DNA of 64,000 bases from NCBI GenBank assembly GCA_003945285.1, contig AP019005.1, positions 868,001 to 932,000 on the forward strand. The letters run 5' to 3'. Below, in pieces: positions 9,945 through 18,278 of the stretch. A program made the translations under genes and the position numbers. Source of the DNA: Hydrogenimonas sp. (GTDB taxonomy: Bacteria > Campylobacterota > Campylobacteria > Campylobacterales > Hydrogenimonadaceae). The number at the start of each line of letters is the position of its first letter. Position 1 is the first letter of the stretch. The notes under the pieces were generated by a model. The model saw only the letters and a program-made list of their open reading frames with translations. It was not told the origin of the DNA and did no database searches.

Positions 9945-12900
9945 ATGATAGAAAAGTTTATACGTTTCGCCATCGAAAAGCCGATTCTCAACCATATTTT
10001 TCTCGTTTTTCTGTTTCTCCTATCTATCTTCGCCTACATAAACATACCCAAGGAGATATTTCCTCCGGCGAATCTGGACAGAATCACCGTAACCGGACAT
10101 TACGCTGGTGCCAGTGCCGATACCCTGGACAAGATGGCTGTCCACTCTATCGAAGACGGGTTGAAAAACCTGAGCGAAATAGATAGCGTGGAGTCGGTGA
10201 TAAAAAACGGATCTTTTTCGATAGGTGCGGATATAAAGCCGGGTAACGATGCCGACCTGGCCCTCAGCGACGTAAAGGATGTAATAGCAAACATAAGGCG
10301 TGACCTTCCGTCCGATATGGACGAACCGATAGCGAAGGTGGCAAAAAGAAGCTTTCCTCTTGTCATCATAGCGGTTGCAGGAGATGTTCCGAAAAAGAGG
10401 CTGCTGCAGATCTCCGAGGAGATAAAGAGCGACCTCGCCGGTTTCAAGGATCTCAGTGACATAGTGATTTACGGCGATGCCGACGACGAGTTGGACATAA
10501 TCCTGGATGTAGCAAAGATCGAGGCCTACGGGCTTACCAAACGTTCGGTAGTAAACACGCTTTCGCGCATCTCATCCATATTTCCGATAGGCTCGATAAA
10601 AGAGCGCGGAAACCATCTTTTCGTCAGTACGATAAACGGTGAGAAGAGTGCGGAGGCCCTTGAAGAGACGCTGCTGAAGATCGACGGAAGGACGATTCGG
10701 CTCAAAGATATCGCCGAGGTGAAGTTCACCCTCAGCGACCCTGCCGAGATATCGCACTTCAACGGCATAAAGAATGTCTCGATATCGGTCAGCAAGTCGG
10801 AGGAGGGCAACGCTATCGCCCTTTCGAAGCAGATAAGAGAGCTTCTTGCCGGCTACTCCGAAAAGTACGGCAACCTCACCTTCAATGTCTACACAGATAC
10901 ATCCGTCTGGATAAAAAACCGTTTAAATACAGTCGTCTCCAACATTATTTTCGGTCTCAGCCTCGTGTTTTTGTCGATGCTGCTATTTGTCAACGCCCGT
11001 ATCGCACTGGTTGTCGCGGTAGGTATTCCGGTAAGTTTCATGATAGGACTGGTCGCATCGGATATACTTGGTTACAGTCTGAATATGCTGACACTTCTGG
11101 GCACGCTCATAGCCCTGGGTATGCTGGTTGACGAAGCGATAGTAGTTGCGGAGAACATCTACCGCTATATCGAAGAGGGTATGGATGCCAAAGAGGCTGC
11201 CGTGAAGGGTTCTGTTGAGATGTTTCCGGCTGTACTGACGGCTACGATGACGACGGTTTTCGCTTTTTTGCCTCTGCTGATGCTCAGCGGCAAACTGGGG
11301 GAGTTCATAAAGGTCCTTCCGGTTATGATCAGTATACTGCTGCTGAGCTCCCTCTTCGAAGCGTTCTACTTTCTTCCTCTTCATGCCAAAGACCTGCTGA
11401 AACCGACGAAAGAGGCGAGCTTTACAAGGCGCTTCTGGGAGAAAAGCTATAAAATCTACGCGGCTCTTTTGCGTCCCGTGATAAGGCACAGATACCTCTC
11501 TCTGTTTCTGATACTCATTTTTATAGGCTCGACAACCTACCTGTTGGCCAAACAGAGCAAGTTTCAGCTCTTTCCGGACTTCGATACGACACAGATCTAT
11601 GTAAACGGCGAAGTAGATATAAACAACGACCTGTTCGATAATGAAAAGATAGTGACCCAGCTTGAAGAGGCACTGCTTAAAAAGCTTCCCGAAGAGGATG
11701 TATCCTCCATCACGGCGGTTATAGGATTGAAGCTCGACAGCAACAACAAAGGTGAACATGCAGACAACCTTTTTCAGATATTCGTCAACCTCCACGAGCC
11801 TGTTCCGAAAAACTTCTTTGACCGTTATATAAACCCTTATCTGAGCCCGGAGTATGACGACTCCGATATGATGAGAAGGCGCTCCGCGCAGGAGGTGGCT
11901 GCCGAGATACAGAAAATAGTCGAGCCTTTCAGGCATAAAAAAGATAGTTACGGGCCGCTTTTCAAAGAGCTAAATGTCATTGTGCCGCAGGCGGGGATCG
12001 TGAAGAGCGATATAGAGATTTCTCTCGGCGGAGATCCAGAAAAGGTTCAAGAAGCCCTGGTACGGCTCAAGAAAGAGCTTGAAAAGATAGAGGGTGTCGA
12101 AAATATCACCGACGACGCCAAAGAGGGTGAAGATGAGCTGAAACTCAGGGTTAACCGGTACGGCCAGCGGTTGGGATTTACCGAAGGTGACATAACGGCC
12201 TCTCTGCAGCCCTTTTTTCTCAAGGGGGAGTATGCGAAGATGTTCAACGACGAAGGGGTAGTCCGTATTCGGCTCGAAGATGTAAACAAGGAGAGGTATG
12301 AGACTCTGAAGCGTTTCGAGCTTCAGATTCCGGGGAGCGTAGAGAGGGTAAAACTTGCCGAAATCGTTGACTTTGAGAGAAAAAAGAGTTTCGCCAAGAT
12401 CTACAAGGTTGACGGAGAGAGGGTGAGCACGGTCTACGCTTCACTCAACAAACACATTATAACCTCATCGGAAGTGATGGATAGGCTCTCGAACTTTTTC
12501 GACTCGGTAAAAAAAGAGGGGGTTACGGTCGATATAAAAGGCGAGGAGAAAGAGAACCGTACCGTTAAGCGGGAAATTATACAGTCGGCGGTCATAGCGC
12601 TCTTTCTGATCTTCGTCGCCCTTGTCTGGATGTTCGACTCGATCGCGCTGCCGCTTATAACCCTATCGACGATACCGCTTTCGATACTCGGAGTGCTGAT
12701 AGGCCATTTCATAATGGGAATAAACCTCACCATGCCGAGTCTTATAGGAATTGTAGGACTATCGGGAGTAATCGTCAACGACGGTCTCATAATGATAGAT
12801 TTCATAAAAAAGAGCCGAGACCTCGATTCGTTGCTGGAACGTGCCAGGCTGAGGCTCAGACCGATCCTGCTCACATCGATCACTACGGTTCTGGGACTCT

Positions 12901-13055
12901 CGTCGCTGATGTTTTTCGCCTCGGGCCAGGCCCTGATATTACAACCGATGGCGGTAACACTCGGATTCGGGCTCATCTGGGCTACGGTTTTGAACCTCTA
13001 CTATGTTCCTCTGCTATTTTCGATTCTTTACAGGGTAGAGGTAAAAGAGTCTTGA
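9945..13055 (+). CDS. RND-family efflux transporter, inner-membrane subunit
   Basis: A 1036-residue proton-driven RND pump of the AcrB/MexB fold. It has an N-terminal helix (about 13-32), two large periplasmic loops and two blocks of membrane helices. TLLGTLIALGMLVDEAIVVAENI near residue 380 is the conserved TM4 segment with the proton-relay acidic residue, and SLIGIVGLSGVIVNDGLIMID near 930 is the counterpart in the second half. No membrane-fusion protein or outer-membrane channel gene is adjacent, which is unusual for an exporter. It starts 11 bases after the FtsL candidate. Substrate cannot be told. Confidence 0.9.
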   Translation: MIEKFIRFAIEKPILNHIFLVFLFLLSIFAYINIPKEIFPPANLDRITVTGHYAGASADTLDKMAVHSIEDGLKNLSEIDSVESVIKNGSFSIGADIKPGNDADLALSDVKDVIANIRRDLPSDMDEPIAKVAKRSFPLVIIAVAGDVPKKRLLQISEEIKSDLAGFKDLSDIVIYGDADDELDIILDVAKIEAYGLTKRSVVNTLSRISSIFPIGSIKERGNHLFVSTINGEKSAEALEETLLKIDGRTIRLKDIAEVKFTLSDPAEISHFNGIKNVSISVSKSEEGNAIALSKQIRELLAGYSEKYGNLTFNVYTDTSVWIKNRLNTVVSNIIFGLSLVFLSMLLFVNARIALVVAVGIPVSFMIGLVASDILGYSLNMLTLLGTLIALGMLVDEAIVVAENIYRYIEEGMDAKEAAVKGSVEMFPAVLTATMTTVFAFLPLLMLSGKLGEFIKVLPVMISILLLSSLFEAFYFLPLHAKDLLKPTKEASFTRRFWEKSYKIYAALLRPVIRHRYLSLFLILIFIGSTTYLLAKQSKFQLFPDFDTTQIYVNGEVDINNDLFDNEKIVTQLEEALLKKLPEEDVSSITAVIGLKLDSNNKGEHADNLFQIFVNLHEPVPKNFFDRYINPYLSPEYDDSDMMRRRSAQEVAAEIQKIVEPFRHKKDSYGPLFKELNVIVPQAGIVKSDIEISLGGDPEKVQEALVRLKKELEKIEGVENITDDAKEGEDELKLRVNRYGQRLGFTEGDITASLQPFFLKGEYAKMFNDEGVVRIRLEDVNKERYETLKRFELQIPGSVERVKLAEIVDFERKKSFAKIYKVDGERVSTVYASLNKHIITSSEVMDRLSNFFDSVKKEGVTVDIKGEEKENRTVKREIIQSAVIALFLIFVALVWMFDSIALPLITLSTIPLSILGVLIGHFIMGINLTMPSLIGIVGLSGVIVNDGLIMIDFIKKSRDLDSLLERARLRLRPILLTSITTVLGLSSLMFFASGQALILQPMAVTLGFGLIWATVLNLYYVPLLFSILYRVEVKES

Positions 13056-13065
13056 TGACGACTTT

Positions 13066-13113
13066 TTGAGTAAATTTAAGCTCATCTTTGTGATAATATT
13101 TCTTAAAGATGAG
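13066..13113 (+). promoter_or_regulatory. Promoter with inverted-repeat operator before the acyltransferase gene
   Basis: CTCATCTTT (13081-13089) and AAAGATGAG (13105-13113) form a perfect 9-bp inverted repeat with a 15-bp centre. The centre contains GATAAT (13092-13097), preceded by TG, as a likely extended -10 box. TTGAGT at 13066-13071 is a possible -35 with a long spacer. The right arm runs into the ribosome site GAGGAG (13111-13116) of the gene at 13126. The layout suggests an operator bracketing the -10, or a hairpin that hides the ribosome site. The RND gene upstream ends only about 25 bp before the left arm. Confidence 0.55.
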
Positions 13114-13125
13114 GAGTGAAATAAA

Positions 13126-13719
13126 ATGTTCAAATGTATTGAAGCAAAAGATGAGGAATTGATAAAAGAGATTTATCGTTTTAGGTATCAAATTGCTTGT
13201 GAAGAAGACAATATTTTTGATAAAAAAAACTACCCAAAGGGAATGGAAACAGATAAATATGACAAATATAGTACACAGTATGCTTTTTTTGATATGGACA
13301 GAAAACTTGCTGCGTGTGTTCGTCTGGTACATAACTCCGAAATTGGTTATCCGACATCAAATGCATTGAAAATCAATACAGAAGATAAAAGCAAATTAAG
13401 CAAATATGTTCAGGAGCGAAAAATTGGTGAGCTCTCTAGGATATTCATCCGAAAAGATTGCAGAGGTATGAAAAATACCAGGCAAATCATCGATTTGGTC
13501 AAACTGAATGCGGGTATCAAAATGAAAGAGATGGGAATAGTTTGTTCATACGGGGCATTGGAGGAGAGTTTCTTGCGACTGCTGTTGATCTTAAAAATGC
13601 CTTATCGCCCTATAGGTTCGTACCAGCTATATGGCAACAGAATGCGTGCACCATGTATAATGGATACAGATGAACTGTTCGAGTTAAATAAGGAGCTTTT
13701 TCTTGAAACGGTTCATTAA
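13126..13719 (+). CDS. LuxI-superfamily (autoinducer synthase-like / FeeM-like) acyltransferase
   Basis: A 197-residue GNAT-fold protein carrying the LuxI signature pattern: R20 in a YRFRYQIACEE helix, D43 and D46 in ETDKYD, R66 in CVRLV, and E102/R105 in GELSRIFI. LuxI enzymes make acyl-homoserine lactones; related FeeM and PEP-CTERM-associated acyltransferases use other acyl acceptors, so the product cannot be named. The gene is markedly AT-rich: 34 of the 120 bases at 13141-13260 are G or C, against about half in neighbouring core genes, suggesting recent acquisition. It overlaps the receptor gene by 17 bp. No luxR gene is in the window. Confidence 0.8.
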   Translation: MFKCIEAKDEELIKEIYRFRYQIACEEDNIFDKKNYPKGMETDKYDKYSTQYAFFDMDRKLAACVRLVHNSEIGYPTSNALKINTEDKSKLSKYVQERKIGELSRIFIRKDCRGMKNTRQIIDLVKLNAGIKMKEMGIVCSYGALEESFLRLLLILKMPYRPIGSYQLYGNRMRAPCIMDTDELFELNKELFLETVH

Positions 13720-15778
13720 CATTCTTGTAATACTTTCAGCATTTTATTTGACGGCATATGGAAATAATGTTAATGTTAAAAATCTTCTGGAAAGTATCGG
13801 TGAAGATGCACATGAGATAGGGGTTATTGCCGAAAAGACTGGTATCAGTGAACCGTATCAACCGTATATCATCTCGGTATTTACCGGAAAAGAGCTAGAA
13901 AGGTTGGGAGTTTCCAATTTAAAAGAGGCGTTACTGCTCGTACCTGGAGTGGATATAGCGACGGACAATATGGACAATCAACGTCTTGTTTTCAGGGGCT
14001 CAAACCCTTTCGCGTATGGACAGAGCAAACTCTTTATAGACGGTGTCGAAGTGAATGATCTTTTCTTTGACAGTTACGGACCATGGCTCTCCATGCCTAT
14101 AGAGATGATAAAACGCATAGAGGTAACTCGCGGCCCCGGAGGAATCAGCAATGGAGTAAACGCCTATGCAGGTTCTATACGGGTTATCACGTATGCGGAA
14201 CATCTTCCTTCGGAGAAGAGTCCAAAAAAAGTTGTGGCGAAGATCGGCAGTTACGACTATAAAATGGCCGGCGCCGTTTTAAGGCACAGTGAAGGAGACT
14301 TTTCCGTCTATGCGGATATCTACTACCAAAAGGATGACAAATCTCTGTATGTTGGCAAAGATTCACTCTCTACCGGCCGTTACGGCGCCGTCAATGTACC
14401 TCTTTCAAAAGATGGAGACGCGCCGCTTTGGATGAGAAGCTATATGCTGGGTCTACGGATGCAGTATGGTGCATTGAGGCTTGATCTGAGAAGCCTATAT
14501 TATGAGAGAGGGAGCGCTTTCGGTATAAACGGAATGCTTCCCGAACCGTCCGATCATGCAAAATTCCCGATCTCCTTCGCGCAGATCAGCTACGACAAAA
14601 GCTTTGAAAACTTCGCGCTGGTTGTAGACGGAGGTGTTAAGCTAAGCTCTTTCAAGAGTGCATCTATGCTTGCACCGGACGGACTTGTCTTTCCTGTTAC
14701 TTTGACTTCTACCGGATTTATCGATCAACCTTTGGTTTTTTCTGAAGGCTTTTACGGAATACATGAGGTAGAGCAGCGCCAACTCTATCAGAGTTCAAAT
14801 ATCACCTACAGCGGAGTGGAGTCGCACAGATTGGATGTCGGTTATTTCGTCTCGAGCGAAAAGGTGCTGAAAGAGGTTACCATAACAACCGACAGATCTG
14901 ACGGTATCGGGTTGGTGGATTATTCTCAGACTCTACCTTTTACAGACCCAAATGCGAAACGTAATACATTCCGCTTTTTTATACAGGATCGTTACCGCTA
15001 CTCGGAAAAACTTACTTTTCAGGCGGGCCTGAATGTTGAAAAAAGCAGTGACATTTCAACGCAGTTCAATCCGAGAGTCTCTGCGGTGTACCAGTTGAAC
15101 GGCTCCAACGTATACAAGCTTATCTACAGTCGCTCCACAAGAACTCCATCGTGGCAGGAGGTATATACACTGAACAACAATACCCGCGTCGGAAACCATG
15201 ATCTCGAACCGGAAGTTGTCAACGCCTGGGAAGCGGCATATATTCACAGATTCGGAACCGGAGAGTTTGTGCAGTTGAACCTGTTCTATCTTAAAAACAG
15301 TGACCAGATAGATAACCTGAATGAAGATTACCAATATAGAAACAGCGGAAGTTCCGATATCTGGGGTGCTACTGTAGAGTATAAGGCTCATATCGGGAAC
15401 AGGGGTAAAATCTATTTCAATTATACTTGGCTGAACGGCAAGAAGTCTGACGATAGTCCACTGGACAACGCTGCGCACAACCTGGCTAAAGCGACCTACT
15501 ATATGTCGCTCTCCGAAAATTGGAACATAGGGGCGGTTGCCCGCTATGTCGGTTCAAAGATTAGGGCGTCGTACGACTACAGAACGGAGAAGGTGCCCGC
15601 TTACTCTACTTTGGATCTCACTCTCGGTTTTACGGAAAGGGGAGGCTTCAAAACCAGATTGAGTGTAAAAAACGTTTTCGATGCCGAGATACGTTATCCG
15701 TCTGAGCCGTATACTTACGATACCGATTACCCAGCTGAGGGCCGTACGGTCATGCTTACACTGGCAAAGGCGTTTTAA
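13703..15778 (+). CDS. TonB-dependent outer-membrane receptor
   Basis: A 691-residue outer-membrane receptor. A signal peptide covers about residues 1-20. The plug domain (about 50-160) shows LKEALLLVPGVDI, LVFRGSN, LFIDGVEVND and the IKRIEVTRGPGG motif. The rest is a beta-barrel ending in phenylalanine (TLAKAF), as usual for outer-membrane proteins. Family members import siderophores, cobalamin or other ligands with TonB energy, or act as sensors. Its 5' end shares the AT-rich composition of the acyltransferase gene, then the sequence returns to the local norm by about 14 kb. It directly precedes the YfiR-like gene, implying a signalling role. Confidence 0.9.
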   Translation: MKRFINILVILSAFYLTAYGNNVNVKNLLESIGEDAHEIGVIAEKTGISEPYQPYIISVFTGKELERLGVSNLKEALLLVPGVDIATDNMDNQRLVFRGSNPFAYGQSKLFIDGVEVNDLFFDSYGPWLSMPIEMIKRIEVTRGPGGISNGVNAYAGSIRVITYAEHLPSEKSPKKVVAKIGSYDYKMAGAVLRHSEGDFSVYADIYYQKDDKSLYVGKDSLSTGRYGAVNVPLSKDGDAPLWMRSYMLGLRMQYGALRLDLRSLYYERGSAFGINGMLPEPSDHAKFPISFAQISYDKSFENFALVVDGGVKLSSFKSASMLAPDGLVFPVTLTSTGFIDQPLVFSEGFYGIHEVEQRQLYQSSNITYSGVESHRLDVGYFVSSEKVLKEVTITTDRSDGIGLVDYSQTLPFTDPNAKRNTFRFFIQDRYRYSEKLTFQAGLNVEKSSDISTQFNPRVSAVYQLNGSNVYKLIYSRSTRTPSWQEVYTLNNNTRVGNHDLEPEVVNAWEAAYIHRFGTGEFVQLNLFYLKNSDQIDNLNEDYQYRNSGSSDIWGATVEYKAHIGNRGKIYFNYTWLNGKKSDDSPLDNAAHNLAKATYYMSLSENWNIGAVARYVGSKIRASYDYRTEKVPAYSTLDLTLGFTERGGFKTRLSVKNVFDAEIRYPSEPYTYDTDYPAEGRTVMLTLAKAF

Positions 15779-16321
15779 ATGAGGTATATCGCTGTAATGT
15801 TGATCTTTTTGCAGTCGGTAGTGTGGGGATATACCTACAACGAACTGCTGCTCGATGCACAAAGCAGAATATATCCGAAAATCCTGATGCTGCAAGAGGG
15901 CATAGGTGCGAAACACAAAAATATGCCGGTCGTCTTTACAGTGGTTTACGAACCCGAAGATGAGTATGCGGCAGAAAGGGTAGTGGAGAAGATAGAGGCC
16001 TATTACGATCACGGGCTGGGGGGAATTCCCTTCGAGGCCGAAATGGCCACATTTGATGAACTTGACCCCTCTTTGCACTCCGATGCCTTCTACATATTGA
16101 AGGGGAGTGACGAAGATATGGAAAAGGCGGTCGAGTTCGCCATGCGTGAAAAGATACCGGTCTTTGTATACGACTTCAAAGATCTGAAGTACGGAGCGCT
16201 TTTCGCCCTGACAATTGAACAGTCTACCGTTATCTATATGAATCGTGTATCGCTCCATAAAACAGGCGTACTTTTCACACCCTCACTCTACTCCATAGTC
16301 AGGTTCGTCGATGAAAAGTGA
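15779..16321 (+). CDS. YfiR-like (DUF4154) periplasmic protein
   Basis: A 180-residue exported protein with a short signal peptide (about residues 1-17). After it come a RIYPKILML segment and a C-terminal part with TVIYMNRVSLHKTGVLFTPSLYSIVRF, which fits the end of the YfiR/HmsC-like family: a strand with asparagine, then a helix that closes the domain. YfiR in Pseudomonas is a periplasmic inhibitor of the diguanylate cyclase YfiN. The ATG follows the receptor stop with no gap and the end overlaps the GGDEF-EAL gene by 11 bp, so a relay from receptor to cyclase is plausible. Family assignment is by pattern only. Confidence 0.55.
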   Translation: MRYIAVMLIFLQSVVWGYTYNELLLDAQSRIYPKILMLQEGIGAKHKNMPVVFTVVYEPEDEYAAERVVEKIEAYYDHGLGGIPFEAEMATFDELDPSLHSDAFYILKGSDEDMEKAVEFAMREKIPVFVYDFKDLKYGALFALTIEQSTVIYMNRVSLHKTGVLFTPSLYSIVRFVDEK

Positions 16322-18278
16322 GAAAGGATACTCTCTCTCAACCAAGATAATATTCTATGTACTTTTTGTCGCTCTGTCGGTTCTTGCTTCCATGTTTCTT
16401 GTTTTCGAGCAGATAGGTAAAAAGACACTTTATGACGTAGAGAGGGAGAAGGCTGAACTGGTGGCGAAGATGTTCGCCCCCCAGATCGGAATAAATCTCT
16501 ATCTCGGTTTCGACGACAAAGTGGATGAGGCCGTAAAACAGATCATGACCGAAAAGGATATACTGGCTGTCTACCTCATAAGAGACGGTGAGATAATAAA
16601 AAAATTAAAACGCCATAGAACCGATATAGAGTTTCAGAATGAGACTTTTCAGATAGAGACACCCATATTCGAACCGGGCGGCCATAAGCGTATTGCCGTT
16701 TTACAGCTTCACTACTCCAGTCACCACTATCGTGAGATGGTTGAGAAGATGACACGTCTGCTTCTGCTCTTTTTCTCAATAGCGACACTTCTGTTTATCG
16801 CACTTGCCTACCAGATACGCAAACGCCTCATACCTTTGAAAAAGGTTGCCGTCGCACTTTCCGAATACGATGTGAACGGTGGTGAGCTGAAGCTGGATTG
16901 TGAGAGTGACGATCAGGAGATCAAGCTTATCATAAATGCGGTCGAGAAGATGCAGGAGAATGTAGGTGCCTATGCCGAACTGCAGGAGAATATGAAGCAG
17001 ATACTTTCGCAAAAGGTACATGAAAAGACCGCGCAACTGTGGCAGCAGCTCTATACCGACCAGTTGACCGGTCTTCCCAACAGACGTGCTCTTATGGATG
17101 ATCTGTCGAAAAAGAGTGATGCGTTGCTCGCCATAGTCAATATAGACGACTTTACGGAGATTAACGATCTATACGGCCATCGAGCTGGAGATATCATTCT
17201 TAAAAACTTTGCGGATGCACTAGATATTCTCGAAGTCGACCGCACCTACAGAATTTCAGGTGATGAGTTCGCACTCATCAAAAACGGGGAGTTCCACCTA
17301 GACGAGGCCAAAACTTTTCTTGAGTTTGTACGAAGTAAAATCGAAAGGACCCACTTCTATTATGAAGAGAACAGGGTTGATATCCGTGTTACCATAGGCG
17401 CCACAATCGAAGAGGCTTCTACGATTGAAGAGGCGGACATGGCTCTCAAGGAGGCCAGAAAACAGCGTAAACCGATTATGATCTTCTCCCCGGTGTGGAA
17501 TCTTGAAAGCAAATACAGAGAGAACATCTACTGGATAAGACAGATAAAGAGTGCTCTGGCACGAGACGGGATAGTTCCGTACTGCCAGCCTCTTTACGAT
17601 ATAGAGGCAAAAAGGATCAAGGGCTACGAGATCCTCGTCAGGCTTATAAAAGAGGATGGAGAGGTTGTTTCGCCGCACAAATTCCTTCCTCTTGCACAGA
17701 AGAGCCACCAGTATCAGTTTATGACGATGAGGCTGGTTGAGCGCAGCTGCGCTTTTTTCAAGGATAAGACGGAATTGACTTTCTCTATAAATATCTCTGT
17801 CGAGGATATACTCAATACGGAAACGGTAGCCTACATCAAAGAGCAGATTCTCCACTATAATATTGCCCACCGTGTCGTTTTCGAACTTCTGGAGAGTGAA
17901 AATATAGAGAAGTTTCCGGAAGTGGAGAGTTTTGTAAACGAGATGAAGGGCCTCGGATGCCAGATCGCTATAGATGACTTCGGTACCGGTTATTCGAACT
18001 TCTCATATCTTATAAAATTGAAAGCGGACTATATAAAGATAGACGGTTCGCTCATAAGAAATATCCACAACGACAAGAATGCCCAGGTCATCGTCGAGTC
18101 GATAGTCGATTTTGCGAAAAAACTCGGAATCCGTACCGTTGCCGAGTTTGTCAGCAGCGAGATGATCTTTGAAAAGGTAAGTGAACTTGGAATAGATGTT
18201 GCACAGGGATACTATATCATGGAACCTGTTCCGATGGAGGAGGTTGAAAGCGGTCCGAAAAAGGAAGATGTGGTATAA
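16311..18278 (+). CDS. Membrane-bound GGDEF-EAL c-di-GMP enzyme
   Basis: A 655-residue inner-membrane protein: helix at about 12-32, a periplasmic sensor to about 145, a second helix at about 147-166 and a HAMP-like linker, then GGDEF (about 245-400) and EAL (about 410-645) domains. The cyclase motif reads SGDEF, still compatible with activity. The EAL domain keeps the catalytic set: E in GYEILVRLI, N in NISVED, FELLESEN, IDDFGTGYS, IKIDGSLI, VAEFV and QGYYI. Phosphodiesterase activity is therefore likely and cyclase activity possible. Last gene of the acyltransferase/receptor/YfiR-like block, whose layout resembles YfiR-YfiN control. Confidence 0.92.
   Translation: MKSEKGYSLSTKIIFYVLFVALSVLASMFLVFEQIGKKTLYDVEREKAELVAKMFAPQIGINLYLGFDDKVDEAVKQIMTEKDILAVYLIRDGEIIKKLKRHRTDIEFQNETFQIETPIFEPGGHKRIAVLQLHYSSHHYREMVEKMTRLLLLFFSIATLLFIALAYQIRKRLIPLKKVAVALSEYDVNGGELKLDCESDDQEIKLIINAVEKMQENVGAYAELQENMKQILSQKVHEKTAQLWQQLYTDQLTGLPNRRALMDDLSKKSDALLAIVNIDDFTEINDLYGHRAGDIILKNFADALDILEVDRTYRISGDEFALIKNGEFHLDEAKTFLEFVRSKIERTHFYYEENRVDIRVTIGATIEEASTIEEADMALKEARKQRKPIMIFSPVWNLESKYRENIYWIRQIKSALARDGIVPYCQPLYDIEAKRIKGYEILVRLIKEDGEVVSPHKFLPLAQKSHQYQFMTMRLVERSCAFFKDKTELTFSINISVEDILNTETVAYIKEQILHYNIAHRVVFELLESENIEKFPEVESFVNEMKGLGCQIAIDDFGTGYSNFSYLIKLKADYIKIDGSLIRNIHNDKNAQVIVESIVDFAKKLGIRTVAEFVSSEMIFEKVSELGIDVAQGYYIMEPVPMEEVESGPKKEDVV

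Follow-up and report, generated by a model that had tools for sequence, protein, structure and literature searches.

A predicted operon in the Hydrogenimonas window, the 64,000-nucleotide stretch analysed here, raises the question of why a gene for a LuxI-like acyltransferase (ACYL) should be joined to genes for a TonB-dependent receptor (TBDR), a YfiR-like periplasmic protein (YFIR), and a membrane protein with GGDEF and EAL domains (GGEAL). The operon may be a self-contained acyl-signalling unit, read through the receptor, the YfiR-like protein, and the c-di-GMP enzyme; on this reading our judgment is evenly balanced. The host genome is a single contig of 2.19 Mb. All four genes lie on the same strand (Table 1) with junction overlaps of 17, 0, and 11 bp, and the reading frames and overlaps are the same as in the initial annotation. 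A promoter and terminator scan did no better than on shuffled sequence. The GC content of ACYL is 36%, compared to 50% for the whole window; this is a weak sign of recent import, because most genomes show some AT enrichment in this gene.

Table 1 Features of the four-gene module, its upstream neighbour, and the methyltransferase genes found beside ACYL elsewhere.
Feature	Position	Strand	Length	Basis or remark
ACYL, acyltransferase with predicted LuxI/FeeM fold, TIGR03694-like	13126-13719	+	197 aa	Profiles, fold, residues R20, E41, D43, D46, R66, E102, S104, R105
Shine-Dalgarno sequence AAGGAG for the TTG start codon of the receptor, within ACYL	13692-13697	+		Read directly
TBDR, TonB-dependent receptor, plug and barrel, N-terminal extension	13703-15778	+	691 aa	
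YFIR, predicted exported YfiR-fold protein without cysteines	15779-16321	+	180 aa	
GGEAL, two membrane helices flanking a periplasmic domain, GGDEF (SGDEF), and EAL	16311-18278	+	655 aa	
AcrB-family RND transporter, 71 bp upstream of ACYL	9945-13055	+		Possible exporter
Carboxyl methyltransferase next to ACYL	L097:6178-7065; L047:9564-10451; L053:7100-7987			

Among 397 genomes of the class, ACYL is present in 30 (threshold 40 bits) and the orthologous triad of receptor, YfiR-like, and GGDEF-EAL genes, judged by a YFIR score of at least 150 bits, in 32. Both occur together in 28 of the 30 ACYL-bearing genomes (Fisher p 2e-36, with the relatedness of genomes ignored), and in 26 of these 28, from several families, they adjoin; contig ends split two of the linked cases and affect few loci overall. 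The order ACYL-TBDR-YFIR-GGEAL is retained in three families. In one genus (g37), the first three genes stay together with overlaps of 1-4 bp, and GGEAL lies upstream in the divergent orientation. Recurrent order and co-occurrence rule out chance adjacency of the four genes. The module is also found in at least five chromosomal contexts (beside an RND pump, in the folD region, in the pepA/ychF region, beside a heat-shock gene, and in a flagellar/permease region), and shared synteny alone is therefore rejected: what is conserved is the unit itself, not its neighbourhood. All four genes are co-inherited, their tree distances correlating at 0.80-0.97. Pairwise dN/dS lies at about 0.06-0.23 and points to purifying selection on all four; in most pairs, synonymous sites are close to saturated. 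The linkage of the four families, which the initial annotation had proposed as a check, thus holds across genomes, and the module behaves as one conserved unit.

A wider scan of about 85,000 species recovered 38 ACYL relatives from Hydrogenimonas, Nitratiruptor, Sulfurimonas, Arcobacteraceae, and other Campylobacterota, including two records matching genomes of the class. The scan was built on a ten-member subset of the family and relied on two peptide patterns, so more distant forms may be missed. The receptor gene directly follows ACYL in 33 of the 38 loci; three of the others are at contig ends and two are unlinked ACYL genes (G367, G291). No plasmid record carries an ACYL relative. Carriers of the module are relatives of Campylobacter from vents and sulfur-rich sites. 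Within Hydrogenimonas, a genus mate (G198) carries the module, and in a congener (G074) the block 9945-18278, comprising the RND pump and the module, is missing at the same site. The transporter has been gained or lost along with the module in this genus and is not part of it elsewhere; it is possible that it exports the acyl product.

Which enzyme does ACYL encode? The window protein matches the GNAT family Acetyltransf_5 above its cutoff (35.8 bits) and falls below the cutoffs of Autoind_synth (PF00765; 20.6 bits, cutoff 24) and of the FeeM profile (16.8 bits, cutoff 27). Its score against TIGR03694, the exosortase-associated synthases, is 82.9 bits, below the curated cutoff of 111.95. Across the family, all 27 members match TIGR03694 at E<=0.001 and 20 of the 27 match PF00765 at E<=0.01. 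Structure comparison confirms the LuxI/GNAT fold, with AHL synthases as the best matches and FeeM (2g0b) at TMq 0.68. LuxI-type AHL synthases have eight conserved residues, in LasI R23, F27, W33, D44, D47, R70, E101, and R104. ACYL keeps six of these: R20, D43, D46, E102, and R105 are invariant in 27 members, and R66 is an arginine in 22, the remaining five having an arginine beside an alignment gap. The signature residues named previously are therefore all retained, R66 less strictly than the rest. The position of LasI F27 is hydrophobic and variable; that of W33 is Y, F, or W in 23 of 27 members, mostly Y or F, and I in the window protein. A hydropathy scan of ACYL finds no signal peptide and no membrane helix.

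By these profile matches, ACYL appears to group with the exosortase-associated N-acyl amino acid synthases (TIGR03694/PF13444) and not with AHL synthases proper, and it is probably an N-acyl amino acid or amide synthase. It has the conserved E/SR motif of that group and probably shares its chemistry. The assignment to the LuxI superfamily in the initial annotation thus stands for the fold and is narrowed for the family. Long-chain N-acyl amides are the products of relatives annotated as PEP-CTERM/exosortase-associated synthases (PMC9762135; Craig et al. 2011, cited in PMC4897644 and PMC7293339). In one such synthase, Nas354, Glu103 is needed (PMC4897644); it plausibly corresponds, by motif position rather than superposition, to the invariant E102. 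ACYL differs from this group in scoring below the TIGR03694 cutoff, in being tied to a receptor-c-di-GMP relay, and in its genomic company: there is no exosortase in the window's own genome, and only three of 33 module-related genomes have one, which rules out a role as exosortase accessory in most of them. A LuxR autoinducer-binding domain is found in none of the 33 genomes (the E. coli control was positive). This agrees with the absence of a LuxR regulator proposed earlier; no hidden LuxR partner turned up in the genomes tested.

Neighbouring genes also bear on the product. A carboxyl methyltransferase (PF04072) adjoins the unlinked ACYL genes of G367 and G291. The same methyltransferase occurs in an Arcobacter genome (L097), where it precedes ACYL by 1 bp and forms one row of genes with it and the triad. 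Its place directly upstream of ACYL in one lineage suggests that the product has a free carboxylate; the simplest product there would be the methyl ester of an N-acyl amino acid.

The receptor has the Pfam domains Plug and TonB_dep_Rec, and no STN signalling domain is found in it. Its nearest characterised relatives by profile are receptors of the siderophore, haem, B12, and CirA types. The YfiR kinship of the third protein is revealed by the fold search alone and missed by sequence searches. The window YFIR matches no Pfam family, PF13689 (DUF4154) included, and the YFIR profile matches neither PDB sequences nor E. coli YfiR; 5 of 23 YFIR members match PF13689 at E<=0.01. Foldseek, however, retrieves YfiR (5eb1/4xjy) at TMt 0.77 and E ~1e-6, so the earlier description of this protein as YfiR-like is borne out in the fold. 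Its paralogue L063, from the same genome, does exceed the PF13689 cutoff, and the YFIR profile recognises it. The YFIR N-terminus is a signal-like segment, and disulfide control seems unlikely because the protein has no cysteine.

GGEAL carries GGDEF and EAL domains by Pfam and aligns with E. coli DgcN/YfiN (hhalign 99.4%, 263 columns) across the periplasmic domain, the HAMP region, and the GGDEF domain, which points to a YfiN-like topology with an extra EAL domain. The EAL catalytic set noted in the initial annotation is complete, with E440, N494, E525, D555, D556, K576, E612, and Q632 invariant in 21 of 21 sequences. In the same 21 proteins, the GGDEF motif drifts: 12 have SGDEF, four GGDEF, and five other forms, including SADEY and SSDEF. 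Since EAL is invariant while the GGDEF motif drifts, the predicted c-di-GMP output is more likely hydrolysis by EAL, perhaps regulated by the GGDEF part, a refinement of the general c-di-GMP output first proposed. In one genome (G057, L034:11182-13131), the module GGDEF-EAL gene is broken into two reading frames of 240 and 388 aa, through mutation or sequencing error.

In Pseudomonas aeruginosa, periplasmic YfiR governs the cyclase YfiN and is itself sequestered by the outer-membrane lipoprotein YfiB (PMC2837407, PMC4655355, PMC4887326). Like YfiBNR (PMC2837407, PMC4655355), the module combines a periplasmic YfiR-fold protein with a GGDEF protein of the inner membrane and a partner in the outer membrane; by this analogy, the TonB receptor would stand in YfiB's place. 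The two systems differ in that YfiB is an OmpA-type lipoprotein, YfiN has no EAL domain, and no synthase belongs to YfiBNR. Paralogous pairs of TonB receptor and YfiR-like genes (L144-L155) are numerous in the class, and most have a GGDEF or GGDEF-EAL gene beside them and lack a synthase; the pairing of outer membrane to c-di-GMP is a general theme in the class.

We propose that ACYL takes a fatty acyl chain from acyl-ACP or acyl-CoA and attaches it to an amine, for which an amino acid is the likeliest candidate; the result would be an N-acyl amino acid or amide. This compound would leave the cell and be bound at the outer membrane by TBDR, whose occupancy would alter the state of the periplasmic YFIR. 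YFIR would then bind or release the periplasmic domain of GGEAL and so set its c-di-GMP output, most likely EAL hydrolysis. In this scheme, the chemistry of the product, its role as ligand of the receptor, the contacts between the proteins, and the direction of the output are all inferred. More broadly, and with confidence a little short of even, we suggest a class of cell-cell signalling among bacteria: an N-acyl amino acid made by a LuxI-fold enzyme, carboxyl-methylated in some lineages, would act through a TonB receptor and a YfiR-type protein on a c-di-GMP enzyme, with lineages keeping the receiver and losing the synthase.

Such losses are seen. The synthase is gone and the receiver triad intact in at least three genomes: in G129, the ACYL copy immediately before an intact receptor gene has lost R20 and carries an internal deletion; in G253, the copy at this place has decayed; and no copy is found in G378. 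The synthase is dispensable in several Sulfurimonas. Two genomes (G367, G291) have the triad of the Sulfurimonas clade and, elsewhere in the genome, a close ACYL relative from another lineage. The converse, ACYL without the triad, is confined to two genomes: G294, whose ACYL runs into a contig edge, and G074, whose ACYL is divergent. A diffusible or shared signal with eavesdroppers would leave this asymmetry as its trace; a relay with a second ligand fits it too. The decayed modules and paralogous triads argue that the relay does not mechanically require the synthase, and since triads without a synthase are common, the relay can serve, and the receptor could have, other ligands. Two further observations were made in these lineages. 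The divergent ACYL of G074 (L050:8980-9543), which has no triad, adjoins a divergently transcribed dCache-GGDEF gene (L050:9803-11362), and several Sulfurimonas-group genomes have ProS in a different short form.

The persistence of intact triads without ACYL would also be expected if ACYL were an output gene. Its relatives make biosurfactant N-acyltyrosines, one synthase is known as a fusion with a c-di-GMP-binding-like domain (both PMC4897644), and some ACYL members match ornithine acyltransferase models. We regard this alternative as unlikely though deserving of weight: an output gene need not track one receptor subfamily so tightly, in a translationally coupled operon, in three families. 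It is rather less probable that ACYL acylates a metallophore or nutrient, which the receptor then imports while the relay reports its uptake. The receptor's profile relatives fit such a role, but comparison of the flanks between groups shows no further biosynthesis genes recurring next to the module, and in most loci ACYL stands alone as a small-molecule enzyme.

If ACYL were a true AHL synthase using S-adenosylmethionine, the module would sense AHLs through an outer-membrane receptor. The best structure matches and the six retained residues agree with this, yet the PF00765 score is below cutoff, TIGR03694 scores far higher, the F27 position varies and that of W33 is mostly Y or F, and no LuxR domain is found in the 33 genomes; we hold this reading improbable. 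Least probable of all is that ACYL acylates a relay protein or that the relay needs it in cis in some other way. A GNAT fold and tight coupling would suit such a role, but the supposed targets are exported or membrane-bound and ACYL has neither export signal nor membrane helix; moreover, triads outlive its loss, and a distant ACYL lineage sits elsewhere in two genomes.

The acyl-signalling reading has a parallel in RpfF-RpfR of Burkholderia and Cronobacter (DSF/BDSF; PMC6361424, PMC4698668), where a fatty-acyl signal synthase and a receptor that alters c-di-GMP need no LuxR. RpfF, unlike ACYL, makes DSF-type fatty acids and is not of the LuxI fold, and RpfR uses its own PAS domain to bind the signal, with neither outer-membrane receptor nor periplasmic go-between. 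LuxI/LuxR shares with the module the synthase fold and six signature residues; the module differs in the PF00765 score below cutoff, in having no LuxR autoinducer-binding domain in 33 genomes, and, if the model is right, in sensing outside the cytoplasm. Our search of open-licence papers found no description of this gene arrangement. A vent genome paper (PMC2628731) described cell sensing in Campylobacterota in terms of LuxS/AI-2. If our reading is true, these bacteria would also have an acyl signal that is read at the cell surface and may be sensed without the usual LuxR-type receptor; N-acyl amino acids would gain a candidate bacterial receptor, and one orphan TonB receptor family would gain a ligand made next door.

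We also observed other FeeM-type synthases. A second FeeM-like family of about 252 aa, with an N-terminal extension, lies by response-regulator genes in other Campylobacterota (L065:8770-9528, L067:8767-9525, L201:6792-7550), with no tie to the receptor triad at these three loci. In G209, a FeeM-type N-acyl amino acid synthase (L199:7818-8750, contig C70) is fused to a C-terminal cyclic-nucleotide-binding domain and is paired with a methyltransferase of the same PF04072 family.
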